Shown here: positions 13,932 to 31,909 of the stretch, piece by piece
How positions within the stretch are numbered: the stretch's first letter is position 1
How the letters are laid out: the number at the start of each line of letters is the position of its first letter
Assembly: GCA_021826315.1 (NCBI GenBank)
Contig: JAKAZZ010000006.1
Location: 1 to 64,000 of the forward strand
Source of the DNA: Actinomycetes bacterium
Lineage (GTDB): Bacteria; Actinomycetota; Acidimicrobiia; Acidimicrobiales; Acidimicrobiaceae
DNA length: 64,000 nt
Reading direction: 5' to 3'
Program-made: the position numbers and the translations under genes
Notes under the pieces: generated by a model
What the model was told of the DNA's origin: nothing
Database searches by the model: none
Seen by the model: only the letters and a program-made list of their open reading frames with translations

Positions 13932-16022
13932 CTACCTCAAAAAGGCATTCGCCACTCCTGAATCCACAGGAATGTGCACTCCAGTTGTCTGTGCTAAGTC
14001 ACCACCAACAAGAACAAAGATCGCAGAGGCAATGCTCTCTGGAACTACCTCTGTTCCAAGAAGGGTGCGGGATGCGTAGTACTTTCCAAGTTCTGCCTCA
14101 TCAACTCCGTAGACCGCAGCCCTCTTAGCACCCCAACCACTAGAGAAGATCTTTGAACCTCGAACGACACCATCAGGATTGACACCGTTTACCCGAATTC
14201 CAAATTGCCCGAGCTCGGCGGCTAGTAGCCGAACTTGGTGGGCCTGATTCGCCTTAGTGGCACCGTATGCGACATTATTTGGACCAGCAAATACTGCGTT
14301 TTTCGAGACGACATAGATTATGTCTCCGCCAATACCCTGATCGACCATAACCTTAGCTATCGCCTTCGACATCAGGAAAGATCCCTTAGCCATAACCTCG
14401 CTTTGACGATCCCAATCCTCTTCCGTAGTCTCGAAGAGCGACTTAGAGATCGAAAGGCCGGCGTTGTTTACCAAGATGTCATAGCCAAGATATGCAAGGA
14501 CTGCATCGACCATAGCGTGATTGATACTCGCACTCTCAGCAACATTCATACCAACGCCTACCGCATTGTCGGCTCCGCCTATCGATGCTGCAACTTCACG
14601 CGCGCTAGCGACATCTAAATCACTAACGATCACGTGAGCACCCTCGCTAGCAAGACGACGCGCCGTGGCTGCTCCAATTCCGGAACCGCCACCGGTCACC
14701 ATGGCAATCTTGCCGCTAAGGGGCTTTGCCTTTGGCATCCGCTTTAGTTTGTCCTCTTCTAGCTGCCAATATTCGATGCGGAACTTCTCAGACTCATCGA
14801 TGGGTCGATATGTGGATATCGACTCCGCACCGGTCATTACGTTGATGGCGTTGATGTAAAACTCTCCTGCCACTCGCGCCGTCTGACTATCCTTGCCGAA
14901 AGAGAACATCCCGATACCAGGAACCAAAAAGATTGTTGGGTCTGCACCGCGCATCGCTGGGGATGTCTCTGTCGCGTAGCGCTGATAGTAGGCGGTGTAC
15001 TCCTCGCGATACTCTTCGTGCAGTTCCTTCAATCGAGCAACTACCACCTCAAGCGGGGCATCAGCGGGAGAATCAACTATTAGCGGTCGTACCTTTGTAC
15101 GTAAAAAGTGATCCGGGCAGCTCGTGCCACGCATCGCTACTTCGTGGTGGCCTTCGCGCGATAGAAAGTCCAAGACGACATCGTCGTCTTTGAAGTGACC
15201 TACGACTCGAACATCTGTTGAGGCGAGGCCTCGTATTATCGGTGCTAACGCCGCTGCTCGAATACGCCTCGATCCCTCGTCGAGTGGCGCAAATTGAGGA
15301 GCTACCTTTCCGAAGACCTCCGACCTACCATTTTCACGTATGTATCGCGCAGCCTCCTCGATGATCTCGATGCTGTTAGCCTCGCACTCCTTTGATGTCG
15401 CACCCCATGAGGTGATGCCGTGGCCACCCAAGATGACACCGATGGCGTCTGGATTCTCTCGTGCCACCTTGGCGATCTCACGCCCCAACTCAAATCCGGG
15501 TCGACGCCAATCGACATACTTTACGCGGTCCCCAAAGATCTTTTCGGTGAGCTCTCGGCCATTTGCAGAAGTCGCAATGGCAATTCCTGAATCAGGGTGA
15601 AGGTGATCGACGTGTGAGCATTCGACTAACCCATGCATTGCAGTATCGATCGAAGGTGCCGCCCCACCGCGACCAAAGGCGCAAAAGTCAAAGGCCGCCA
15701 CCATCTCATCTTCGTAGTCGACGCCACGATATACGCCTTCTAAGGCCCTTAGCTGATCGACCTTTAGAGCGGCAAGGCCACCGAACGTAAGAGTTCCAAG
15801 GTCGCCTCCCGAGCCCTTGACCCACATTATTTCGACTTCACGTCCACTCGAAGGATCAACAACGAGAGCCTTCGCCGAGGCGTTGCCCCCGGCATAGTTT
15901 GTATTCTTGGGATCGCTCCCGAGCCTGTTCGCCCTCTCTAGAAGTTCTTCGACTGCCTTGGGAGGAGTATATGAAAAAGATGTCGCCACCTTAAGCACCC
16001 CATCCCGCTTGAGTTCCGCCAA
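13932..16022 (-). CDS. rhaEW: Bifunctional rhamnulose-1-phosphate aldolase / lactaldehyde dehydrogenase (SDR)
   Basis: A 696-residue two-domain enzyme. The N-terminal 420 residues are a class II aldolase/adducin domain with NYAGGNASAK, WVKGSGGDLGTL, HVDHLHPDSGIAIA (metal histidines) and ILGGHGITSWG. It splits rhamnulose 1-phosphate to DHAP and L-lactaldehyde. The C-terminal 260 residues are an SDR, with GGGSGIGAATA for NAD binding, NNAG and YGATKANQ at the catalytic Tyr-Lys. It oxidises lactaldehyde to lactate, as in Bacillus RhaEW. The start at 16022 overlaps rhaI by 32 bases, and in-frame GTG codons at 15998 and 15989 are alternatives. The lactate product links the operon to lutABC. Confidence 0.92.
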   Translation of the reverse strand: MAELKRDGVLKVATSFSYTPPKAVEELLERANRLGSDPKNTNYAGGNASAKALVVDPSSGREVEIMWVKGSGGDLGTLTFGGLAALKVDQLRALEGVYRGVDYEDEMVAAFDFCAFGRGGAAPSIDTAMHGLVECSHVDHLHPDSGIAIATSANGRELTEKIFGDRVKYVDWRRPGFELGREIAKVARENPDAIGVILGGHGITSWGATSKECEANSIEIIEEAARYIRENGRSEVFGKVAPQFAPLDEGSRRIRAAALAPIIRGLASTDVRVVGHFKDDDVVLDFLSREGHHEVAMRGTSCPDHFLRTKVRPLIVDSPADAPLEVVVARLKELHEEYREEYTAYYQRYATETSPAMRGADPTIFLVPGIGMFSFGKDSQTARVAGEFYINAINVMTGAESISTYRPIDESEKFRIEYWQLEEDKLKRMPKAKPLSGKIAMVTGGGSGIGAATARRLASEGAHVIVSDLDVASAREVAASIGGADNAVGVGMNVAESASINHAMVDAVLAYLGYDILVNNAGLSISKSLFETTEEDWDRQSEVMAKGSFLMSKAIAKVMVDQGIGGDIIYVVSKNAVFAGPNNVAYGATKANQAHQVRLLAAELGQFGIRVNGVNPDGVVRGSKIFSSGWGAKRAAVYGVDEAELGKYYASRTLLGTEVVPESIASAIFVLVGGDLAQTTGVHIPVDSGVANAFLR

Positions 16023-17157
16023 TGCGACTCTCCTCGATCTTCTTCTGGTAGCCCGATGCCTTATAAGCGGCTATTGGGTCGCGATCCAAACCCATTTCTT
16101 CCCGAACTTCAGCTAGGATGCCTCGAACATCGGTGTTGAATGCCTCCTGAAAGATCGCGTTTGCCTCGAGTACTTCACCAGCAAGTTGAGCCTTCGCAAG
16201 TTCGGCTCGGTCAACTAGGAGTGCTTTAGCGGTCGCCTCCTGTACATTCATGACAGAACGGATCTCAGCCTGAACTTTGGGCTCGATATTGTGGCACTGA
16301 TCGAGCATGAACGCTACGCCGCCCTCTGGAGTTACCGCATCCGCGTCCACTATCTCGAACATAATGCGAAAGAGTTGATAGGGATCTGCGCTACCAACCA
16401 TCAGGTCATCATCGCCGTAGAAGCGGGAGTTAAAGTGAAATCCACCTAATCGTTGAACTCTAATCAATGACGAAACCAAAAATTCAATGTTGGTAGCAAG
16501 TGCGTGGTGGCCGGTATCTACTAGAACCTTGGCCTGTTCACCAAGTGCCATGCAATGGATGAGGGAAGTCCCCCAATCGGGAAGGTCCATCGTATAAAAA
16601 GAGGGCTCGTAGAGCTTGTATTCAATAAGCATGGTAAGGTCATTGCCCATGTGACTATAGGTTGTCGAAAGGGCCTCACCTAGGCGTTCCTGGCGCGCCC
16701 TAATCGAATCCTGGCCAGGATAATTCGTCCCATCGGCGAACCAAAGGGAGAGGGCGAACGAATCTGTCTCGTGTGCAATATCAACACACTCGAGTAGGTG
16801 ATCAATGGCCTTTCTTCGAATCTTGGGGTCGGGGTTACATACCGAACCGAGGCGATAGTCGACATCTTGGAAGACGTTAGGGTTGATCGCCCCAATCTTG
16901 ATCCCTAACTCACTAGCGTGCTTAGCAAGTCTGGAGTAGTCGTCGGTCTTATCCCACGGAATATGAAGTGCGACTGACGGCGCAACTCCGGTGAAGCGGT
17001 GAACAGTCGCCGCGTCTTCAATCTTTTCAAATGGATCTCGTGCTACCCCAGGTTGAGGAAAAACCTTAAACCGAGTGCCGGAGTTACCATAGGCCCACGA
17101 GGGTGTCTCGATTTGCTGCCTCTTTAAGGTTGCTTTTACTGAATTTAGATCGATCAC
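15991..17157 (-). CDS. rhaI: L-rhamnose isomerase
   Basis: A 388-residue TIM-barrel sugar isomerase converting L-rhamnose to L-rhamnulose. It is of the RhaI type (Pseudomonas stutzeri-like) rather than the E. coli RhaA type. Metal-site motifs include IEYKLYEPSFY, VLVDTGHHAL, GGFHFNSRFYGDDDLMVGSADPYQ and FMLDQCHNIEPK. ATG 17157 gives MIDLNSVKATLKRQQ, a typical start. It is second in the catabolic half of the operon, 40 bases after rhaM and overlapping rhaEW. Confidence 0.92.
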   Translation of the reverse strand: MIDLNSVKATLKRQQIETPSWAYGNSGTRFKVFPQPGVARDPFEKIEDAATVHRFTGVAPSVALHIPWDKTDDYSRLAKHASELGIKIGAINPNVFQDVDYRLGSVCNPDPKIRRKAIDHLLECVDIAHETDSFALSLWFADGTNYPGQDSIRARQERLGEALSTTYSHMGNDLTMLIEYKLYEPSFYTMDLPDWGTSLIHCMALGEQAKVLVDTGHHALATNIEFLVSSLIRVQRLGGFHFNSRFYGDDDLMVGSADPYQLFRIMFEIVDADAVTPEGGVAFMLDQCHNIEPKVQAEIRSVMNVQEATAKALLVDRAELAKAQLAGEVLEANAIFQEAFNTDVRGILAEVREEMGLDRDPIAAYKASGYQKKIEESRIGGTQAGWGA

Positions 17158-17197
17158 TTTATACTCTCACTTTCAATAACTTTCCACCGCCGATCTT

Positions 17198-17515
17198 TTA
17201 ATCGAGGTGAAAGACCTCTTCCACACTCACCATCGCTCCATCGGGAGCACCGTCGATCTCAATAAAGTACGGGGCCATCATCGCCTGCCACCGAGCATTT
17301 ACTTCGTTGGATGCCATCTCACTTAGGCATGTGGCAAAGTCTTCACATTCGAGGTACCCCGTCAATAGGCCGTCGTTAGTTAGAAATAGTGAGTAGTTTC
17401 GCCAACCGGCTTGACTCAACGCAGTTTGCATGTCGGGCCAAACTTCTCGGTGGTGCGCCTTATACTCTTCAACCTTTTTAGGATTGATTCTCAGATGGAA
17501 TAGGACTCGTTGCAA
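17198..17515 (-). CDS. rhaM: L-rhamnose mutarotase
   Basis: A small dimeric ferredoxin-like-fold enzyme that interconverts the alpha and beta anomers of L-rhamnose before isomerisation. The sequence QRVLFHLRINPKKVEEYKAHH is followed by EVWPDMQTALSQAGWRNYSLFL and LLTGYLECED, the family core. I place the start at TTG 17515, with GGAGG five bases upstream, which gives 105 residues, the usual RhaM length. A longer frame to 17572 would add a Pro-rich tail unlike the family. It lies between the transporter and isomerase genes. Confidence 0.9.
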   Translation of the reverse strand: MQRVLFHLRINPKKVEEYKAHHREVWPDMQTALSQAGWRNYSLFLTNDGLLTGYLECEDFATCLSEMASNEVNARWQAMMAPYFIEIDGAPDGAMVSVEEVFHLD

Positions 17516-17540
17516 AACGACCTCCGTCGCCTGGGGTGGC

Positions 17541-17567
17541 GGGGCGCTATTTAAGGGGTGGCGCCCC
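17541..17567. promoter_or_regulatory. Hairpin between rhaS and rhaM
   Basis: GGGGCGC at 17541-17547 pairs with GCGCCCC at 17561-17567, 18 bases after the rhaS stop on the minus strand. Such hairpins behind binding-protein genes often protect the upstream message or partly stop transcription, so that more binding protein is made than downstream enzymes. No T-run follows. Confidence 0.45.
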
Positions 17568-17584
17568 GTCACTCGATGGGGAAT

Positions 17585-18673
17585 TTAGAAGTTGAAGTTG
17601 TTGATATTCGTCTTGTCGAAGACGTAAGGGGCGCCCAACAAGATCGAGTGGTCAGAGGCGATGGTGTACTTACCCAACTTGCCAGCGGTGAAGGTCTGGC
17701 CAGGTGTATTAGTGATCGCCTTACTCGCCAACTCTGCCGCTGCATAGCCAGCTAGGTAACCAAGATTGGCTGGGTTCCACAGCTCAAAGGAGGTTACAGT
17801 GCCATCTGCTACGTACTTCTTCATCTCATTCGGAGTAGCAAGGCCAGTTAAGGCGATCTTGCCACGGTATTGAGGTGTATCGAGAAGTGCCGCAGCCGCT
17901 GCAATACCTACCGTCGTTGGCGATATGATGCCCTTCAAGTTCGGGTACTGCTGAAGCAAGCCTTGAGTAACCGCAGTAGCAGTGGCGGGATCGTCGTTAC
18001 CGTAGACGATCGAAACCAGGTGCATATTCGGATACTTGGTAAGCTCCTGCTTCATGTAGCCGATCCATGCATTCTGATTCGTTGCAGAGGCGGTAGCAGA
18101 GACGATAGCGATGTCACCAGTTGAATTGATCTGCTTGGCTAGTAGATCGACCTCGCTGGTTCCAATCTGCGAAGTGCTCGCTTGATTGACGAACAGGTTA
18201 CGACAGGTGGGAGCATCGCTGTCATAGGTAACAACGGTGATACCTTTGGCCATCGCCTGATTTAGGGTCGGACAAAGGGCGGTTGGGTCGGTCGCCGAAA
18301 TTACCAAGGCGTTAGCGCCCTGAGTGATCGCGCTCTGAATTACCGGTAGCTGCGACGAAGGTGTGGCAGCGGTACCGCTAGTCTCAGATCCAGTCTCGCC
18401 CAGCGATTGAAGCGCTGCTAGTGCACCACCTGATTGAACCGAATCGGCGGTCGTAAAGTATGAGTTACCGATAACCTTAGGTATTACTACTACCTTCAAG
18501 CCGGTCTTGATCGATCCACCTGAAGCAGCCGCCTGGGTCGTTGCCGTGGACGCTGCTGTAGTGGAAGTTGAAGACGATACCGTCGTACCACAAGCCACTA
18601 GGGCAACCGATGATGCACCCAATAGAAGTGCCGTGGTTGTCTTTCTCTTTGAGAACATTGATTTTCCTTGCAT
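17585..18673 (-). CDS. rhaS: Rhamnose ABC transporter substrate-binding lipoprotein
   Basis: A 362-residue periplasmic-binding-type protein of the ribose/rhamnose group. It has a signal peptide with lipobox LVAC, lipid cysteine at residue 28, and a Ser/Thr/Ala-rich tether. The two-lobed sugar-binding fold shows VVIPKVIGNSYFTTADSVQSGGALAALQSLGE, ANALVISATDPTALCPTLNQA and ITVVTYDSDAPTCRNLFVNQA. It should catch L-rhamnose at the outer membrane face and deliver it to the two permeases. The ATG at 18673 has gggggaa upstream, while ATG 18658 (aaggaaa upstream) is also possible. It is followed by a hairpin. Confidence 0.9.
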   Translation of the reverse strand: MQGKSMFSKRKTTTALLLGASSVALVACGTTVSSSTSTTAASTATTQAAASGGSIKTGLKVVVIPKVIGNSYFTTADSVQSGGALAALQSLGETGSETSGTAATPSSQLPVIQSAITQGANALVISATDPTALCPTLNQAMAKGITVVTYDSDAPTCRNLFVNQASTSQIGTSEVDLLAKQINSTGDIAIVSATASATNQNAWIGYMKQELTKYPNMHLVSIVYGNDDPATATAVTQGLLQQYPNLKGIISPTTVGIAAAAALLDTPQYRGKIALTGLATPNEMKKYVADGTVTSFELWNPANLGYLAGYAAAELASKAITNTPGQTFTAGKLGKYTIASDHSILLGAPYVFDKTNINNFNF

Positions 18674-18945
18674 AATACTTTTCCCCCATCACATGAGGAA
18701 ATCACCAAAATTTCCCAATGTCACACACCCGATGGGTTGTGACTCGAACATCTATCTTCTCCCCCATCACCTCCTTTTTCTGAGTGAGGATGACCACTTT
18801 CCCCTAGCACGCAGCCCCGCCGCTAGGTGGAAATGGCCACCTCAGGTAAATTCGCTAATCCAATTGCCTTGGACTTGAAACTTTCGAAGCGGCAAATCTC
18901 GAGATGACTCACCGACAATCAACCGCACAAAGGCCGGCGGTCCCT

Positions 18946-20004
18946 CTAACCTCTGCGGAGGCCGACTAAACGTCGCCTCGCGTAATGACCCCTTAACCTG
19001 CCGAACAGCTCTCGCGCATTTGGAACAAAGACGCTTATCAAAAGCAGGCCCCCATTGATAAGGCCCATCGCCTGTTGTGGAAAGTTCGCCAGAAGAAGGG
19101 CGTTGCCGATAGCGCCAACGGTGGCCGCAGCCAAAACAACGCCAATGATAGTTCCACGACCACCAAAGATCGAGACCCCTGCTAGCAGAACGATCGAAAC
19201 TGCATTGAGCTCGAGGCCAGTTGCGTTATCGTACTCAGCAGTCGCCAAGCGAAAGGTAAAGAGAATTCCAGCCAAAGAACAGACAACACCGGAGAGGATA
19301 TAGAGGCGCATCTTGATCTGCTTGACCTTAATGCCGGAGTAGGCGGCTGCCTCCGAATTGGATCCGATCGCAAAGATAGACCGACCAAGAGGGGTAAAGT
19401 GAGCAACAACTCCAAAGATCAATGCCAAGATTAAAAAGATCCCCACTGACCACGGCAGTGGCGTCCCAGGTATCGGATTTACTCCGATAGTGGTGTAACT
19501 CGCCGGAAAGTTGGAGACGATATTCGAGCCGAGCAAAATTAGGGCGATGCCGCGATACAAGGTAAGGGTCCCGATGGTGACGGCAAGGGAAGGAAGGCCC
19601 AACTTGGTTACTAAAAATCCGTTGATAAACCCTAGGATGGCCCCGTCTATCAAGACGACGGGGATAATTAGTTGAATCGGCCAACCGTGTATCCAAAGAA
19701 AACCTAGCAACGAGGATGAAAGGCCAAGGATTGAAGCAACCGAGAGGTCAATCTCGCCTGAGATTACGATCAACGTCAGCGGAAGTGCCATGATGGCAAT
19801 ATCACCGACCGAAAGGCCAATGTTGAAGAAGTTCGCCGAGGTAAGAAATTGCGGCGATGCTACGGTACCAATAATTAGCGATGCGATCAGTACGATCCCA
19901 AGGCCACTCTCCCACCGCACGAGACTTCTTACATCAAAGGAACCCTTGGCTCCACGGTTGCTATCGATATCATCTTTTAGTTCGATCGTTTCAGCTTGCA
20001 ACAC
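18946..20004 (-). CDS. rhaQ: Rhamnose ABC transporter permease (second)
   Basis: A 352-residue inner-membrane permease of the BPD_transp_2 (ribose/rhamnose) family with about ten helices. Marks include GEIDLSVASILGLSSSL, INGFLVTKLGLPSLAVTIGTLTLYRG and IGSNSEAAAYSGIKV, the EAA-like coupling loop, and VSIFGGRGTIIGVVLAA. I start it at GTG 20004, preceded by GAGGAG, which overlaps the first permease by 14 bases. A start at 20046 would overlap by 56. It pairs with the preceding permease as a heterodimer. A 272-base gap separates it from rhaS. The rhaP and rhaQ names may be swapped. Confidence 0.88.
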   Translation of the reverse strand: MLQAETIELKDDIDSNRGAKGSFDVRSLVRWESGLGIVLIASLIIGTVASPQFLTSANFFNIGLSVGDIAIMALPLTLIVISGEIDLSVASILGLSSSLLGFLWIHGWPIQLIIPVVLIDGAILGFINGFLVTKLGLPSLAVTIGTLTLYRGIALILLGSNIVSNFPASYTTIGVNPIPGTPLPWSVGIFLILALIFGVVAHFTPLGRSIFAIGSNSEAAAYSGIKVKQIKMRLYILSGVVCSLAGILFTFRLATAEYDNATGLELNAVSIVLLAGVSIFGGRGTIIGVVLAAATVGAIGNALLLANFPQQAMGLINGGLLLISVFVPNARELFGRLRGHYARRRLVGLRRG

Positions 20005-21061
20005 GAGAACTCCTCTTGCGTAGTGACTTTGCGAGATAAAGGCCAATGCCGCGATCTAGAGCGATAGCCAAGATAAGCAGTAGACCACTTATCGCTTGGT
20101 CCCAAAAGGCTGAGACCCCTAGGACATAAAGTGACGAGTTGATGGTATTCAGAAGAAGTGCTCCGATAGCGGCACCGATCGCGCTCCCACTACCACCAAA
20201 GATGGCAACTCCTCCGACGACAACAGCCGTTACAACCGTGAATTCGTATCCGGTCCCCGCCGTGGAGTCGATAGTTCCGTAGTACGAGGCCCAGATAACA
20301 CCGGCTAATCCAGCGATTGCGCCCGAGATTGCAAAGGCAGTAAAGACTCTCTTAGCTATAGGGATGCCGACTAGACCAGCGGCTTGCTCACTAGAACCGA
20401 TGGCGTACAAGTCCCGTCCAGACCGATAGTTTTTGAGGTAGTAGGCACCTCCAAATACGACTATCGCGACAACGATCGAGATAATTGGAATAGCGCCAAA
20501 AGAGGCCGAAGTTACCGATAGAAAATTAGACGGTAGCGAAGAGGCTACAACTTGGCGACCACCGACGATAAGTACGTCTAAACCCCTAAATATGTAGAGT
20601 GAAGCTAGTGTTACGACGAGACTAGGCACTCTTCCGAACGCGATTAATACGCCGTTTACAACCCCTAGGACTAAGCCAATTCCGATCCCTACGGCAAAGA
20701 CAAAAACGATTGAGACGTGGTGAAATTGCTGGTAGAGATTAGACGATACAAAGGCTGACAGTCCAAGGATAGACCCAATTGAGAGATCAACGTTCTTAGA
20801 GACTACAACCATCGTCTCCCCAAGGGCCAAAAGGGCAAAGATAGTGGTGTCAATCAGGATGAACTTAATATTTTGCCCAGCTAAGAACCTTGGCTTGATA
20901 GCAGTAGTAAGAAGGACAAAGATGAACAGAATCCCAAAGATACCAAATTCACGCGCCCTAAAGACCAGTGACGTGAACTTAGAGGCACCGCTAGGAACCA
21001 ATTCAACCGAAGATCCGCTATTCGATGGGTTACTCTGAGAGTTTTGTTCTATTAGCGTCAT
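19991..21061 (-). CDS. rhaP: Rhamnose ABC transporter permease (first)
   Basis: A 356-residue multi-spanning permease of the same family as the gene behind it. It shows SKNVDLSIGSILGLSAFVSS, VNGVLIAFGRVPSLVVTLASLYIFRG, IGSSEQAAGLVGIPI (coupling loop to the ATPase) and VAIFGGSGSAIGAAIGALLLNT. The N-terminal 30 residues are polar and cytosolic. Its ATG overlaps the rhaT stop as ATGA, a sign of translational coupling. It forms the membrane channel with the second permease. Confidence 0.88.
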   Translation of the reverse strand: MTLIEQNSQSNPSNSGSSVELVPSGASKFTSLVFRAREFGIFGILFIFVLLTTAIKPRFLAGQNIKFILIDTTIFALLALGETMVVVSKNVDLSIGSILGLSAFVSSNLYQQFHHVSIVFVFAVGIGIGLVLGVVNGVLIAFGRVPSLVVTLASLYIFRGLDVLIVGGRQVVASSLPSNFLSVTSASFGAIPIISIVVAIVVFGGAYYLKNYRSGRDLYAIGSSEQAAGLVGIPIAKRVFTAFAISGAIAGLAGVIWASYYGTIDSTAGTGYEFTVVTAVVVGGVAIFGGSGSAIGAAIGALLLNTINSSLYVLGVSAFWDQAISGLLLILAIALDRGIGLYLAKSLRKRSSRVAS

Positions 21062-22572
21062 GCTGCCTTTACCTCCTTTGAGAGGGTCGCTGCGGCAATA
21101 ATTGCCTCTTCGGTCGCCCCTTTATGGTCAAACTCGGCGACTAGTCGCCCCTCACGCATCACCAATATGCGGTCGGCCAAGTTCAAGACCTCAGGAAGCT
21201 CCGATGAGATGACGAGTACGGCTACCCCGCTCTTAGCCAACTCCAAAATCAACCGATGGACTTCAGCCTTGGTTCCAATATCGATACCTCGTGTAGGTTC
21301 ATCCACAATCAAAACCTTTGGCGAACGCGACATCCACTTCGCCAAGACGACCTTCTGCTGGTTGCCACCGGAGAGGGTTGATACCGAGTTGCCTAAGTTG
21401 CCATATTTAATCTGAAGCTTCACCGACCAGTCTGCGGCAAAACGCGTCTCGGTCAAAGATCGAATGAGTCCCTTTCGCTTGAGGCTCTTGAAAGATCCCA
21501 TAGCAATATTTCGAGCTATCGACTGCTCCATAACGAGTCCCTGAAGGCGACGATCCTCAGGGACGAGACCTATTCCAGCGGCCATGGCGCTAGAGGGCGA
21601 ACCGCGCTTCAACGCCTTCCCGCCCACCTTTACTGAGCCATAGTCGTAGCGTCTAACCCCAAAGATGGCGGTTGCGACTTCACTCCTACCCGCACCAACT
21701 AAACCTGAAAGGGCGACTACTTCTCCTGCCGCAACGGTGAAAGAGATATCGGCAAATAGACCCTCTAGCGTCAGATGCTCAACTTCCAGCAGAGGCTTCA
21801 GGTCGATACCGCGAATTTGATCTGACCTTCGCTCAACGTCTCTGCCCACCATCGCCCTCACCAGCGCATCTTCGTTGGTCTCGCTGCTCATCGTGGTCAG
21901 GACGAAGCGGCCATCACGCATCACCGTAACCCGCTCGCATAGGGTAAATACCTCATCGAGGCGGTGCGATATGAAGAGGATCGCTACTCCCGAGTTCTTC
22001 AAAGTCTCAGCTACGCGAAAGAGGCGATGGACCTCGACAGATGAGAGTGCAGCGGTCGGCTCATCCATTATTATGACGCGAGCCTCCAATGAGAGTGCCT
22101 TGGCTATCTCGACTATCTGTTGCTCAGCTATCGACAATCCAAGGGCCAGTCGTGTTGGATCTAAATCCACTTCGAGGCGCGAAAAGATCACGCGAGCGGC
22201 CTTATTCATACTCCGGTAGTCGATCCTTCGAAAGCTTCGTTGAGGCTGTCGCTCCATAAATATATTCTCAGCAACGGTTAGGTCGGGAAATAGAGTCGGT
22301 TCCTGGTAGATCACTGCGACGCCAGCTTCGATTGCATCCCTAGGTGAGTTGAAAAACACTTCGTTTCCATCGAACTTTAGCGATCCCGAATCAGGTCGAT
22401 GGAGACCGGCAAATATCTTGACCAGGGTTGACTTTCCTGCGCCGTTTTCCCCTACCAATGCGTGCGCTTCTCCGGCGAAGAGGTCAATTTGTCCATCCTC
22501 TAGGGCGTGAACAGCGCCGAAGTACTTTTTTGCGCCCGTGAGTGATATCACAGAATCTTTATCATTACTCAA
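21058..22572 (-). CDS. rhaT: Rhamnose ABC transporter ATPase (two-domain)
   Basis: A sugar ABC ATPase with two nucleotide-binding domains, as in RbsA/RhaT. Domain 1 has GENGAGKSTLVK (Walker A), IAEQQIVEIAKAL and VIIMDEPTAALS. Domain 2 has the degenerate Walker A SGLVGAGRSEVA, then LSGGNQQKVVLAKW and VLIVDEPTRGID. The consensus second-domain Walker lysine is replaced by Arg, as is usual for this subfamily. I start it at TTG 22572, preceded by gggggaa. The open frame continues to 22665, but that region contains the regulator operator. It is the first gene of the rha operon. Confidence 0.9.
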   Translation of the reverse strand: MSNDKDSVISLTGAKKYFGAVHALEDGQIDLFAGEAHALVGENGAGKSTLVKIFAGLHRPDSGSLKFDGNEVFFNSPRDAIEAGVAVIYQEPTLFPDLTVAENIFMERQPQRSFRRIDYRSMNKAARVIFSRLEVDLDPTRLALGLSIAEQQIVEIAKALSLEARVIIMDEPTAALSSVEVHRLFRVAETLKNSGVAILFISHRLDEVFTLCERVTVMRDGRFVLTTMSSETNEDALVRAMVGRDVERRSDQIRGIDLKPLLEVEHLTLEGLFADISFTVAAGEVVALSGLVGAGRSEVATAIFGVRRYDYGSVKVGGKALKRGSPSSAMAAGIGLVPEDRRLQGLVMEQSIARNIAMGSFKSLKRKGLIRSLTETRFAADWSVKLQIKYGNLGNSVSTLSGGNQQKVVLAKWMSRSPKVLIVDEPTRGIDIGTKAEVHRLILELAKSGVAVLVISSELPEVLNLADRILVMREGRLVAEFDHKGATEEAIIAAATLSKEVKAA

Positions 22573-22651
22573 AGAAGTTCCCCCGAAGATTTCCAAGTAA
22601 ATTGTGAGGTTCACCCCCACTCGCCAACACCAAGATTGGAAAAATGTGTTA

Positions 22652-22665
22652 TTGAAACGTTTCAA
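22652..22665. promoter_or_regulatory. LacI-family operator upstream of the rha operon
   Basis: TTGAAACGTTTCAA is a perfect 14-bp palindrome with the central CG expected for LacI/GalR proteins. It lies 80 bases upstream of the rhaT start, in the divergent region shared with the LacI-family gene. Binding there would block the operon promoter in the absence of the inducing sugar. Confidence 0.8.
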
Positions 22666-22909
22666 AAACTTATCGATAGTGTAACGGCAATGTTAACGAG
22701 AATCAAGCCAGAATCTAAATTTCTGATAAATTTCTTTCAACCAGCATCACCTTCGTTAGTCACTCAAAGCGAACGGAGCCGAAATAGAGACGCAGAAAAA
22801 CCAAGTCAAAGTAGTAGGAATAGCAAAATAGCCGCGACGAAGAAAAAAATCAAAGTCTCCAAGCGCTAGTTCTAGATTCATTGCTATCGTACTAAGTAGG
22901 TTTGGCAAT

Positions 22910-22923
22910 AAAAAACGTTTCAA
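22910..22923. promoter_or_regulatory. Second, degenerate LacI-type operator before the regulator gene
   Basis: AAAAAACGTTTCAA keeps the central ACGTTTCAA of the perfect site at 22652 and differs at its first three positions. It sits 15 bases ahead of the regulator's ATG, so it probably serves for autorepression. Two sites 258 bases apart could also support looping. Confidence 0.6.
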
Positions 22924-22937
22924 CTTTCGGAGGAAAC

Positions 22938-24038
22938 ATGGCTGGAGATAGTGGCGCCCATGGAGATCTCTCCAGTAACGGCACACATCCAACCAAAGAT
23001 TCCAAAAAAGCTACCATTCGGGACGTCGCGAACAAGGCAAAGGTCTCACTCGGCACGGTCTCAAATGTACTAAACGATCCAGAACGAGTTGCGCCGGCGA
23101 CGCGAAATAGAGTCTTAAAGGCCATCGAAACAACTGGATTTGTTCGCAATATCGCAGCACGTCAACTGCGAGGCGGAGGCTCCAAAGCAGTTGGGATCGT
23201 AATATTAGACTCCTCAAACCCCTTCTTCACCGAGATGATTCGAGGAGCCGAAGACGCACTTCGACAAGAGGGCTACCTCCTCATCGCTTGCTCCACGGAT
23301 GGAAGTAACGACCGCGAGGCGATGTACCTTCGACACCTCGAAGAGCATCAAGTAGAGGGCGTTCTAATAACCCCAAGCAACGACGACTTGGAGCAGATAA
23401 TCGACTTTCACGACCGCGGCACACCTGTTGTGCTAGTTGATCGCGAATCGCATTCAGGAGAACTCTGCTCAGTTACCGTCGACGACGTCAGGGGTGGATC
23501 AATAGCGGTCTCACACCTCATCGACGAGGGGCACACGAAGATTCTCTTCATCAATGGCCCAACTACGATTCGACAGTGTCGCGACCGACGCGCCGGGGTC
23601 GATGTAGCCCTAAAGAGTCTAAAGAAGGTGGAGGAGGCCGATTGGATCGAGGTTGTCGATCTTGAAGTTCCTTCTCTCTCGATTGCATCAGGTGAAGAGA
23701 TCTCAATCGAACTGATCGACCTCGATCCAACGATCACCGCGATCATGTGCGCAAACGACCTCGTGGCAATCGGCGTCATGAGAGGACTTGCGCGAAGCGG
23801 CGCGGACCTTTTATCCCGTGTAGCTCTCGTCGGCTATGACGACATCACCTTTTCTTCGCTCGTTTCACCAGCCCTGACCTCGGTTCACCAACCACAATAT
23901 GACCTCGGATATGCGGCTGCGAGATTGCTCCTAGAGGAGCTCGGCGACTCCAACCACCGCCACCACGAGATTCGCTTCACACCCGATCTCGTTGTAAGGG
24001 AATCAAGCAGTGGCAGAAGTTCACAATCTCAAAGGTAA
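22938..24038 (+). CDS. LacI-family repressor of the rhamnose operon
   Basis: A 366-residue LacI/GalR regulator. Its helix-turn-helix and hinge helix are ATIRDVANKAKVSLGTVSNVLNDPERVAPATR...NIAARQLRGG. The sugar-binding domain follows, with IVILDSSNPFFTEMIRGAED, VEGVLITPSND, VDDVRGGSIAVSHLIDEGH and VGYDDITFSSLVSPALTSVHQP. The start at ATG 22938 has ggagg seven bases upstream. About 20 Gly/Ser-rich residues precede the HTH. It is divergent from the rha operon, and both flanks carry a palindrome of its family, so rhamnose or a pathway intermediate is the likely inducer. Confidence 0.88.
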   Translation: MAGDSGAHGDLSSNGTHPTKDSKKATIRDVANKAKVSLGTVSNVLNDPERVAPATRNRVLKAIETTGFVRNIAARQLRGGGSKAVGIVILDSSNPFFTEMIRGAEDALRQEGYLLIACSTDGSNDREAMYLRHLEEHQVEGVLITPSNDDLEQIIDFHDRGTPVVLVDRESHSGELCSVTVDDVRGGSIAVSHLIDEGHTKILFINGPTTIRQCRDRRAGVDVALKSLKKVEEADWIEVVDLEVPSLSIASGEEISIELIDLDPTITAIMCANDLVAIGVMRGLARSGADLLSRVALVGYDDITFSSLVSPALTSVHQPQYDLGYAAARLLLEELGDSNHRHHEIRFTPDLVVRESSSGRSSQSQR

Positions 24039-25143: not shown

Positions 25144-25986
25144 TTGATACCGATCTATGAAAACTTACGAGGTCGCACTGCCGCTATCACTGGGGGAAGT
25201 GGCGTACTTTCAAGCGCCATGGCGAGAGAACTCGCTCGCCATGGCGTGAGCGTTGCGATCCTCAATAGAAGTACCGAGTCTGGGGCGAAAGTTGCTCAAG
25301 AGATCGTCGACTCAGGCGGTATCGCAAAGGCATTTACCTGCGATGTCACCAAAGCTGAAAGCATATGCGCAGCCAAAAAAGAGATTGACGAAGAATTTGG
25401 AAGATGCGAAATTCTAATAAATGGAGCCGGGGGAAACGTAGCTGAGGCAATCACAACTGACGAAACCTTCAAAGACGGGGCCAACTCTAATGATCGATCA
25501 TTCTTTGACCTAGAGATAGCTGCTTTTAGCAAGGTCTTTGACCTAAACCTGACTGGAACAATCGCAACGTCACAAATCTTTGCCAAAGACATGATAGGTC
25601 TACCTGGCGCAACAATCGTCAACATTTCATCTATGAGTGCATTTTCACCACTTACCAAAGTCCCCGCCTACTCGGCGTCAAAGGCTGGTATTAATAACTT
25701 CACTTCGTGGCTAGCCGTCTACCTTGCCAAATCTCAAGTCCGCGTAAATGCAATAGCACCTGGCTTTTTCCTCACGACACAGAATCGACACCTGCTGACT
25801 AACCAAGATGGATCGTTAACTCCCCGCTCGAAGAAGATCATAGGTAAGACACCCATGGCAAGATTTGGCGAGCCGCATGAACTCCTTGGAACTCTCCTAT
25901 GGCTCCTAGACGAAGAACTTTCCGGGTTCATAACTGGAGTAACTATCCCTGTTGATGGCGGATTCATGGCCAATAGCGGCGTATAA
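25144..25986 (+). CDS. SDR oxidoreductase, D-mannonate oxidoreductase-like
   Basis: A 280-residue classical short-chain dehydrogenase. It has an NAD-binding TGGSGVLSSAMARELARHG turn, INGAGGN, catalytic Ser in INISSMSA-like NISSMSAFSP, and YSASKAG (Tyr-Lys). The long segment FFLTTQNRHLLTNQDGSLTPRSKKIIGKTPMARFGEP followed by GVTIPVDGGFMANSGV is typical of the SDR-type fructuronate/mannonate reductases (UxuB/YjmF group). No other hexuronate gene is near, so the substrate is inferred from similarity only. The start is TTG 25144 with aaggga upstream. Confidence 0.8.
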   Translation: MIPIYENLRGRTAAITGGSGVLSSAMARELARHGVSVAILNRSTESGAKVAQEIVDSGGIAKAFTCDVTKAESICAAKKEIDEEFGRCEILINGAGGNVAEAITTDETFKDGANSNDRSFFDLEIAAFSKVFDLNLTGTIATSQIFAKDMIGLPGATIVNISSMSAFSPLTKVPAYSASKAGINNFTSWLAVYLAKSQVRVNAIAPGFFLTTQNRHLLTNQDGSLTPRSKKIIGKTPMARFGEPHELLGTLLWLLDEELSGFITGVTIPVDGGFMANSGV

Positions 25987-26507: not shown

Positions 26508-26555
26508 AAAAAAGGGGCCGAGATGAAAGGCTTCACACCACTCGGCCCCTTTTTT
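26508..26555. terminator. Strong bidirectional terminator between SDR and MFS genes
   Basis: AAAAAAGGGGCCGAG at 26508-26522 pairs perfectly with CTCGGCCCCTTTTTT at 26541-26555 around an 18-base loop. It has T-runs in both directions and lies 33 bases after the MFS stop. Confidence 0.92.
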
Positions 26556-26587: not shown

Positions 26588-28582
26588 TTAGACCGAAGTG
26601 AACTTCTTCATCTCCTCTTGAACCATAGCCTCGTGAGCAAGTTCGTCACTCTTAGCCTTCGAGGGGCTCCATCTACCACGCATCATTGGCACGCTCAAGA
26701 TGAAGAGGAGGCACGCCGCAACGCAGATCCAATACCAAGTCTGCCATTGTGAAGGAGAGTCCTTTGATGCCTGAATCACGGCTGCACCGTGAGCTTGCAG
26801 GAAGGCAAGCTCGGGTGCTGCCTTCTGGAGTGCGGCAAGTTGCGGCGCATCTGCCTGAAGTTGGGTAAAGAACTGAGCATTTGCTCCGATCTGTGAAAGT
26901 TGAGTTGCATAAGGAGCCAACGCCGTAAGTTGAGGCGCTACGGCAATGACGTTAGTGATGGCACTCTGATTTTCAGCGATCGTAGCTAGGATCGCCTGAC
27001 CAGTCGCTCCACCGCCAGCTGCTTGGACCGCCTGAGCTAGAAGCGCCGGTGGAATCGAAGCAGTAGACGGGTAAGTGGCCAACTGGGTGAACAACGCTGG
27101 ATTTGCCTGAATAACCTTCAACTCGGCGGCATACTTCTGAGCGTCACTCAATTGTGTTGCGTACTTTGTCGCGGTTGCAATTACCTGTTGGTGAGTCTCT
27201 GCAAACTTGATGAGAGCTCCATGGGTAGATGCGAAGCTCAGAAGCGGACCATTCGCCTTAGCAAAAGCGAGCTGGGATGCATCTTGAGCTGCGTACTTTT
27301 GCACCGTCGCACCATAACTAACAAGCGGATTTGCGGAATTGACAATTTGAGGAAGGATCATAAAGGCTAGAAATACGACGATCCTTAGAATCCAGCCCCA
27401 AATCGCGAGTCCTGTCGCAGTAAGCGCAGGATTATGAGCCTCGACGGTCTCAGTAAAGCTAGCCATCCAAGGTGCGTATGCGAAGGCAAGAAAGAGTGAG
27501 ATCAGCGCGAGCAGCAATGCAACCTCATAGTAACTGGTATGGTGACCAAGTCGCCCGAGAAACACTATCGTTACGATTGCGCCACCGAGGGCACCTAGGA
27601 TCATAAACGGCTTTCGGACCCGGACCTTGTCCGAGATGATGCCGATGAGAATGAGACCAACGGCGTTAGCGCCCCACTGCCAGTTGCCAATCCCATTGGC
27701 ATCCTTCAGGGAAAAACCAAAGACCGTAGTGAGAAGTACGGTCCCAAATCCAACCGCGGTGTAATAAATAAGGAGCATAATCGAGATAGCGATCGCCGAG
27801 ATAATTATGTCGGGCTTAATCATCTGCTTCCATGGATTACGCAGACTCGCCTCAATATCAATTCCCTTGGCTCGCGCTTCGATGAGAACCCTATCCTTTA
27901 GAGAAACCATCAGTTGGTCTCTCAGGCGAGGAGACAGTTCGCGGAGGCCAAAGAGCGCTACGACAAAGACGACAAGGCCGACGACTCCGCAGATTCGATA
28001 CTCGGTCTGCCATTGAGTGTTCGCATTGATAGTCGCCGAACCAACGATCGATACCACAAGGCTCCCGAGTACCGGCCCAGTCGTCCAGAGGCCCATCGCT
28101 GTCGCCCTTCCGGTCTGTGGTGAAAAGTCGCGGATCAACGCGGGCGTCGCAACTAGGGCGATCCCTTCTACTATTCCAACTACGAATGTGGTGATAATAA
28201 AGGGCCACTTCGAGGTCATCTGAGGAATGACAAAAAGTGTCGCAAGTCCGGTCAGCAATAGACCCGCCACTACCAAGTTGGCGCGCCCAAGGCGATCGGA
28301 TAGTCCAGCCAAAAGTGAGCCAAAGGCACCCAAAAGGTTACCAATGGCTAAAGCCGTTACATAAAAGGTAAAGCTCATCCCGAGGCTAGGCAAAAGTATC
28401 GTTGTAACCGATCCGCCCACATAGAGTTCGTAGTAGAGAGCGACGGTTATCAAAACGACGATAGCTAGCTGAACTAGCCGTGGCCCCATCTCTGGATAAG
28501 AATCTAAGTTTCGATGAGTCAACCTGTAGATTGCCCCACTTCCAGAGTCAACCTCTTTTAACTCATCAACGGTTGTTGACAT
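26588..28582 (-). CDS. MFS transporter with a large Ala/Gln-rich loop insertion
   Basis: A 664-residue major facilitator. Twelve segments are visible. The loop 2-3 motif is GSLLAGLSDRLGRANLVVAG and the 8-9 counterpart is ISDKVRVRKPFM. Between the eleventh helix (VVFLAFMILPQIV) and the twelfth (WYWICVAACLLFILSVPMM) lies an insertion at residues 415-607 made of Ala/Gln/Leu-rich helical repeats such as APQLTALAPYATQL and APQLAALQKAAPELAFL. By topology it should be outside the membrane. A normal carrier has only a few residues here. The substrate is unknown. The single gene ends in a strong terminator. Confidence 0.88.
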   Translation of the reverse strand: MSTTVDELKEVDSGSGAIYRLTHRNLDSYPEMGPRLVQLAIVVLITVALYYELYVGGSVTTILLPSLGMSFTFYVTALAIGNLLGAFGSLLAGLSDRLGRANLVVAGLLLTGLATLFVIPQMTSKWPFIITTFVVGIVEGIALVATPALIRDFSPQTGRATAMGLWTTGPVLGSLVVSIVGSATINANTQWQTEYRICGVVGLVVFVVALFGLRELSPRLRDQLMVSLKDRVLIEARAKGIDIEASLRNPWKQMIKPDIIISAIAISIMLLIYYTAVGFGTVLLTTVFGFSLKDANGIGNWQWGANAVGLILIGIISDKVRVRKPFMILGALGGAIVTIVFLGRLGHHTSYYEVALLLALISLFLAFAYAPWMASFTETVEAHNPALTATGLAIWGWILRIVVFLAFMILPQIVNSANPLVSYGATVQKYAAQDASQLAFAKANGPLLSFASTHGALIKFAETHQQVIATATKYATQLSDAQKYAAELKVIQANPALFTQLATYPSTASIPPALLAQAVQAAGGGATGQAILATIAENQSAITNVIAVAPQLTALAPYATQLSQIGANAQFFTQLQADAPQLAALQKAAPELAFLQAHGAAVIQASKDSPSQWQTWYWICVAACLLFILSVPMMRGRWSPSKAKSDELAHEAMVQEEMKKFTSV

Positions 28583-30970: not shown

Positions 30971-31909
30971 TTGATCGATCGAATACATAGATTCCGACCG
31001 ACCTCCATCTCTTTTCTAGCACTCATGTCAATGATCGTCGCCTCATGCGGAAGCAGTGCAGTCAGTCTTCCCCCACCATCTACGACACAACGACTGTCGA
31101 CCCCCACAAGCACCAGTTCATTCGAGGCAACAAGCACTACCTTTATATCGAGACCTCAAGGCCAGAGGGTAAGTGCTAAATGGGTCCTTACCTCCAATGT
31201 ATTGAAGGTAATTGCCAAGAATCAATCGATCTACCCAAAAATCGCCTCCGAAGGTGTAATCGAAGTAACGCCCATCGATGCATCTCCGCTACTTGGAGTC
31301 GGTGTAGTTCCCGCTGTAAAGTTCACAAGTGTGAAAAGCCTCGTCCAGGCAATACAGAGCGGAGCTCTACCCACTTGGGCAAAGGCAGTCATCTACGATC
31401 CGGAGTATTGGGCGCTAACACCGACGACGGAACAGTCAGATCCGGTCACAGCCTCCTCGATGGCAAGTGTCGCGGCCAGGCAAGCAGGACTTATCTACGT
31501 TGTTACACCCGCCCTTGACCTCACGAAGGCACTTGCCCCAAACACAGCACCCAACGGCCAATCGCTTATCGAAATGGGCCTCTATGGCAAATTAGCTAAG
31601 GCAGCAGATGTAATAGTGATCCAATCGCAGTCATTAGAGGGAAATCTCCCGGCCTACAGCTCCCTCTTATCTCAAAGCTCAAGCCAAGCTCGCAGCGCGA
31701 ATCCAAATATCGACGTACTTGGAGGGCTGAGCACGAACTTACGCAGTGCTTCGCTCGGCTTGATCAATCTAACTAGCGCTTATTCAAGCGGCCTCACCCA
31801 AGTAAATGGCTATTGGTTCAACGTTCCAGGTAAGTCAATCCAATGTCCCACTTGTTCGCAAGCAAATTTTCAACTAGCGATGAGCTTCTTTGAAGCCGCA
31901 CTCACCTAG
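30971..31909 (+). CDS. Secreted lipoprotein of unknown function
   Basis: A 312-residue exported protein. It has a signal peptide and lipobox (IVASC, lipid-modified Cys26), then about 40 Ser/Thr/Pro-rich residues, then a folded domain. Segments such as TWAKAVIYDPEYWALTP, GLIYVVTPALDL and ADVIVIQSQSLEGN suggest an alpha/beta barrel like those of glycoside-hydrolase-type proteins, with a CPTC motif near the end. I do not recognise the family. The start is TTG 30971 behind gagagggggg. It is a single transcription unit, transcribed toward the convergent peptidase gene. Confidence 0.7.
   Translation: MIDRIHRFRPTSISFLALMSMIVASCGSSAVSLPPPSTTQRLSTPTSTSSFEATSTTFISRPQGQRVSAKWVLTSNVLKVIAKNQSIYPKIASEGVIEVTPIDASPLLGVGVVPAVKFTSVKSLVQAIQSGALPTWAKAVIYDPEYWALTPTTEQSDPVTASSMASVAARQAGLIYVVTPALDLTKALAPNTAPNGQSLIEMGLYGKLAKAADVIVIQSQSLEGNLPAYSSLLSQSSSQARSANPNIDVLGGLSTNLRSASLGLINLTSAYSSGLTQVNGYWFNVPGKSIQCPTCSQANFQLAMSFFEAALT

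Follow-up and report, generated by a model that had tools for sequence, protein, structure and literature searches.

Small helical extensions in the last outside loop of MFS carriers have been described in Rv1410/MHAS2168 and in QacA. In Rv1410/MHAS2168 (PMC10576003, PDB 8pnl), TM11 and TM12 reach past the membrane on its outer side, and truncation of the TM12 extension in Rv1410 homologues abolished lipid (triacylglyceride) transport. The lipoprotein LprG was proposed to dock at, or be positioned by, this TM11–TM12 extension (PMC10576003). In QacA, a drug:H+ antiporter of the DHA2 type, the EL7 hairpin (residues 441 to 467, between TM13 and TM14) forms a gate together with EL1, and its deletion abolished resistance (PMC10425836). 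For coiled coils, a 10/3 periodicity has been proposed as the lower limit and is seen as stammers with local 3-10 helix (PMC4786415).

The window analyzed here, a stretch of 64,000 nucleotides from a member of a group of acid-loving actinobacteria, encodes a complete MFS transporter of 664 aa with 12 TM helices (26588..28582, minus strand), as assigned from the ORF, the Pfam MFS_1 match and an AF2 model. The MFS_1 match covers residues 54 to 394 (E = 2.6e-28, 99.4 bits, gathering score 33.4), and MFS motif A (GxxDRxGR, loop 2-3) is present as AGLSDRLGR at residues 92 to 100, with G93, D96, R97, G99 and R100 invariant in our alignment A1. The AF2 model of the full chain adopts the MFS fold with 12 TM helices, and its core superposed best on SLC37A4 (G6PT1), with a Z of 39.2 and an rmsd of 2.9 over 374 residues. 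SLC37A4, OxlT, the D-galactonate symporter and other 12-TM MFS structures all share the core fold (Z 33 to 39, about 370 to 390 residues), but none of them, by aligned length, has room for a counterpart to the segment described below. NCBIfam searches returned sub-threshold matches alone, the D-galactonate subfamily being the best; TIGR00893 (anion:cation symporter/D-galactonate transporter) scored 60.9 bits, below its curated cut-off of 395.

The segment lies between TM11 (27341..27430, minus strand, residues 385 to 414; hydropathy peak 392 to 410, AF2 helix 385 to 413) and TM12 (26681..26746, minus strand, about residues 613 to 634; hydropathy 616 to 634), which alignments place at the conserved QWxxWYWIC. 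A first-pass annotation of this DNA had described a 193-residue Ala/Gln-rich insertion between the last two MFS helices, and the ORF, Pfam, hydropathy, AF2 and homologue lengths all agree with it: residues 415 to 607 (26762..27340, minus strand) contain 49 Ala, 23 Gln and 20 Leu. Hydropathy and the AF2 model revealed no membrane-grade hydrophobic stretch within the insert, and ordinary membrane helices, a prediction that the annotation had named as fatal to its proposal, were rejected on these grounds. K+R residues occur in the N-terminal segment, the TM6-7 segment (residues 217 to 256, a loop of cytoplasmic type that is charged and contains short helices), the TM8-9 segment and the C-terminal segment, while the short outside loops contain 0 to 1. 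Because K+R is nearly missing from those loops, the TM11–TM12 segment is predicted to lie outside, and as a prediction this position is well supported.

The insert occupies the same last outside loop as the TM11–TM12 extension of Rv1410/MHAS2168 and, like the QacA hairpin, it is predicted to be a modular helical hairpin, found in a subset of relatives only. However, Rv1410/MHAS2168 has 14 TM helices plus linker helices (TM6–TM7) and an extension of 31 to 38 residues (about 20 Å), and QacA has 14 TM helices and a hairpin lacking a tandem repeat, whereas the window protein has 12 TM helices and 193 residues built on tandem decads. Because both known carriers have 14 helices, the window protein belongs to neither family. 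The annotation had also stated that no standard MFS family has this layout; that holds insofar as it matches no standard Pfam or NCBIfam family, but Rv1410/MHAS2168 and QacA provide smaller precedents. No MFS layout like this one was found in the open-access literature, and this conserved elaboration of a widespread transporter type has apparently not been described before.

Inspection of the insert revealed two blocks of tandem decapeptides. Arm 1 (27071..27310, minus strand, residues 425 to 504) contains eight, in order ATVQKYAAQD, ASQLAFAKAN, GPLLSFASTH, GALIKFAETH, QQVIATATKY, ATQLSDAQKY, AAELKVIQAN and PALFTQLATY; arm 2 (26762..26971, minus strand, residues 538 to 607) contains seven; and between them alignments place a tip or link of 33 residues, PSTASIPPALLAQAVQAAGGGATGQ... 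(26972..27070, minus strand, residues 505 to 537). Both blocks are exact, with zero single-residue slips, and the arm-1 unit, roughly xxxL-A-F-A-xx-[H/Y/N], is in identical frame with the arm-2 unit, AxQLxxLxx[N/Y/H]. The decad periodicity is far beyond chance: lag-10 self-similarity against shuffles gave z values of 7.5 to 7.6 for the window protein and 7.1 to 10.1 for the other sequences from the family of the window genome (Acidithrix, Ferrithrix and relatives; eight sequences in all), with harmonics at lags 20 (z 4.7 to 6.8) and 30. In these same-family inserts the values at lags 7 and 11 were near zero or negative, not as in a heptad or hendecad coiled coil. The helical repeats proposed in the annotation, APQLxxL and related units, therefore stand as a periodic helical array, but the unit is exactly 10 residues and more regular than had been described. 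In both arms, hydrophobicity is concentrated at decad positions 4 and 7, and in three of four arms tested the hydrophobic moment peaked at 107 to 107.5°, equivalent to ~3.35 residues for each helical turn (10/3); the exception, with its peak elsewhere, is arm 1 of the window protein. Coiled-coil decads and stammers likewise have a ten-residue, three-turn hydrophobic spacing taken up by local helix distortion; the described examples are local three-residue insertions in heptad coils or single decad motifs (PMC4786415, PMC9369452), whereas the insert has 15 decads, arranged as two tandem blocks within the loop of a membrane carrier.

AF2 models of the full chain and of the isolated insert, built on alignments of only 6 to 7 sequences, both show a helix break roughly once per ten residues. 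In the full chain, arm 1 is modeled as short helices at residues 435 to 443, 445 to 453, 455 to 463, 465 to 473, 475 to 483, 485 to 493 and 495 to 501, and the isolated insert as nine-residue helices with period 10 (mean pLDDT 83.6, 84 to 93 over most of the insert). The helical arm is thus a prediction, and well supported as such; that the last outside loop forms an ordered hairpin of helices is likewise a prediction, from AF2 together with the co-lengthening of the arms described below. Searches of Pfam with four inserts gave nothing near the cut-offs, and a search of PDB sequences with the insert gave zero matches. Foldseek (best E 0.53) and the VIA fold comparison (highest Z 4.6, which for helical models is within the noise of that method) returned weak long-helix look-alikes. 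There was no significant match among PDB and viral folds, although this is no proof of a new fold.

To place the insert in its wider context, we compared homologues. The insert-length set held 72 measured sequences, with one truncated locus dropped and some rows near-copies; 71 homologous sequences have 87 to 246 aa at the insert place, and one distant Nonomuraea protein, the outgroup, has 3 aa. Homologues generally have the insert, which rules out a local repeat expansion in one genome, the other outcome that the annotation had named as fatal to its proposal. All eight same-family sequences have a 197-residue segment by landmarks (the 193 residues above plus four), and this length is constant although insert identity to the window protein falls to 49%. 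A diverged second paralogue in a same-genus genome (L019, G007:C13; 64% identical) has a 197-residue segment likewise, and many genomes of the order contain two or three carrier paralogues in differing gene contexts (G702, G721, G730, G758, G764, G801, G814, G826, G844). An Acidithrix-like genome also holds a stray insert piece, ASISANKAAVEGVIAVASQLRTLTP, with stops around it and no long frame (L037, G001:C87:22595-22693), which is a relic or a recombined fragment.

At the strict cut-off the carrier was found in 10 of 60 family relatives searched, some family genomes having no gene, and in the order-level sample of 347 genomes it occurs in 57 genomes and 43 of 194 genera. It was also found on plasmids of Streptomyces, Embleya and Rhodococcus. 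Because phylum-wide samples of about 300 to 400 genomes gave, at the strict cut-off, the window's own genome only, the range outside Acidimicrobiales rests on these plasmid matches. In the core tree, the long same-family forms cluster (support 93/100) and the insert-less outgroup sits on a very long branch; this fits a history in which the insert may have gone from none to short to long, on a tree whose root is not secure. The last arm-1 unit together with IPPALLxQA is common to Streptomyces, Embleya and short-form relatives. Base and tip sequences are found again in the short forms, while the stalk varies in length.

To measure arm length, we next took the conserved motif at the end of arm 1, xxLFxxLxxY, as a landmark. 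The lengths of arm 1 and of the rest of the insert were 30/51, 32/57, 50/69, 57/84, 68/88, 70/94, 80/107, 82/109 and 104/132, and over 20 representatives the two rose together with r = 0.97 and a slope of 1.09, for points that are related by descent and hence not independent (r = 0.81 with L078, in which the motif falls in arm 2). The two arms of an antiparallel hairpin have to lengthen in step, and we count this co-lengthening in favor of the hairpin. Unit scans gave about 2+2 decads per arm in Streptomyces, 3+3 in L043, 8+7 in the window protein and 10+8 in L045. Outside the window's family, the mean z over 63 sequences peaked at lag 10 (1.79), indicating a weak decad signature throughout the group. 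The inserts of L053, L057 to L059 and L080 are as long but lack decads; decads are therefore not essential for a long loop, and such loops have more than one origin. Those of L057, L058, L059 and L080, from another family of the order, measure 231 to 232 residues and are a parallel expansion, their growth being due in part to longer repeats such as FSPAAASVQAGKPVSPATVASIKKYSPQLA, found twice in L058.

The MFS gene stands alone in its context. Just downstream, a terminator-like inverted repeat with A6/T6 flanks, GGGGCCGAG...CTCGGCCCC (26514..26549, minus strand), was read in the sequence; the loop limit of our inverted-repeat scan leaves it out. The flanks are a rhamnose operon and a D-mannonate oxidoreductase gene on one side and a photolyase-related gene on the other. 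The rhamnose utilization cluster (13932-22665, minus strand, and 22902-24038, plus strand) encodes a RhaI-type isomerase, a RhaD-type bifunctional aldolase/dehydrogenase, a RhaS binding protein, an ABC importer and a LacI-type regulator. The D-mannonate oxidoreductase (25144-25986, plus strand; NF006132 above cut-off) is a neighbor of the MFS gene in the window and, among relatives, solely in the closely related L001. We considered and rejected sugar-acid uptake on the basis of this neighbor, as it is common only to the very close L001 and the SDR near L108 is 27% identical to it. A lipoprotein-like ORF with a VASC lipobox and no Pfam match lies 2.4 kb from the MFS gene (30971-31909, plus strand) and was rejected as a partner, since the syntenic L001 locus has no room for it. 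Across 34 loci no neighbor gene, lipoprotein or other partner gene conserved beyond close relatives was found, whereas LprG is encoded in the same operon as Rv1410.

Taken together, the computational data support a 12-TM MFS carrier whose last outside loop (TM11–TM12) is predicted to form a long hairpin of tandem decapeptide helices, 8+7 units, with a conserved tip. As the best explanation of the whole, which we advance tentatively, the insert would be a stalk that presents its tip outside the membrane for docking and has a gating base. The two arms may pack along each other via decad positions 4 and 7, with a spacing of 3-3-4 if the position-10 H/Y/N residue is counted, and such packing would give a stiff stalk. 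Anchored on two neighboring C-domain helices, the stalk would move with the C-domain in the rocker-switch cycle, with its base bracing the outside gate and its length fixing how far into the cell wall zone the conserved tip reaches. There, the tip might serve for docking to, or substrate exchange with, an extracytoplasmic partner whose gene lies elsewhere. A gate-bracing base combined with a docking tip seems the most likely of the functions considered, and among the roles that the annotation had listed for the segment, namely sensor, docking arm and envelope-spanning element, the docking arm is our favored guess. It is possible, if somewhat doubtful, that this hairpin of tandem decapeptide (10/3) helices represents a structural repeat of a new type. 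It would lie at the proposed limit of coiled-coil periodicity and serve as a length-adjustable stalk carrying a conserved docking tip from the MFS carrier into the cell wall zone.

The part of the insert conserved most widely is the base (S-TPLV-YG, QWxxWYW), and by the QacA precedent a hairpin of ~25 residues is enough for gating. Both points would suit a hairpin that acts as a whole on the transporter as an allosteric outside gate, in the manner of QacA EL7, its extra length serving no partner. We regard this as unlikely, for it leaves the lengths of 87 to 246 aa, the conserved tip and the fixed length in the eight same-family sequences unexplained. A different alternative is that a short ancestral hairpin was lengthened by unit duplication to little functional effect, its low charge merely suiting an acidic exterior. 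The insert does change about twice as fast as the core (nonsynonymous differences per site of 0.09 to 0.34 versus 0.05 to 0.18 among same-family sequences, nearly all pairs of which have reached saturation at synonymous sites; individual comparisons gave 0.091 versus 0.049 and 0.287 versus 0.118), and other lineages have a different, decad-free sequence at similar length. Yet purifying selection acts on the insert, about half as strictly as on the core, its length is invariant inside the family, and the arms lengthen together and not by independent drift, making such a drift-tolerant filler more unlikely still.

The composition of decad position 10 could also point to ligand binding. In arm 1, the 64 cells at this position hold 24 H, 21 Y, 8 N, 6 F and 5 D, and a ladder of His/Tyr/Asn might capture a metal or an organic ligand and pass it on to the carrier. 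But the window insert has only 3 His, no Cys and few acidic residues, and position 10 is plausible as a helix cap or core layer, so we consider this reading highly improbable.

If the docking stalk with a gating base is correct, MFS carriers can acquire an outside arm that lengthens ten residues at a time. The natural length series, from 2 to about 10 units per arm, would then allow stalk length, gating and partner docking to be separated. The long decad runs would also make it possible to test, on a natural example, whether paired helices of this kind can form a stable rod at what is, by theory, the edge of the possible.
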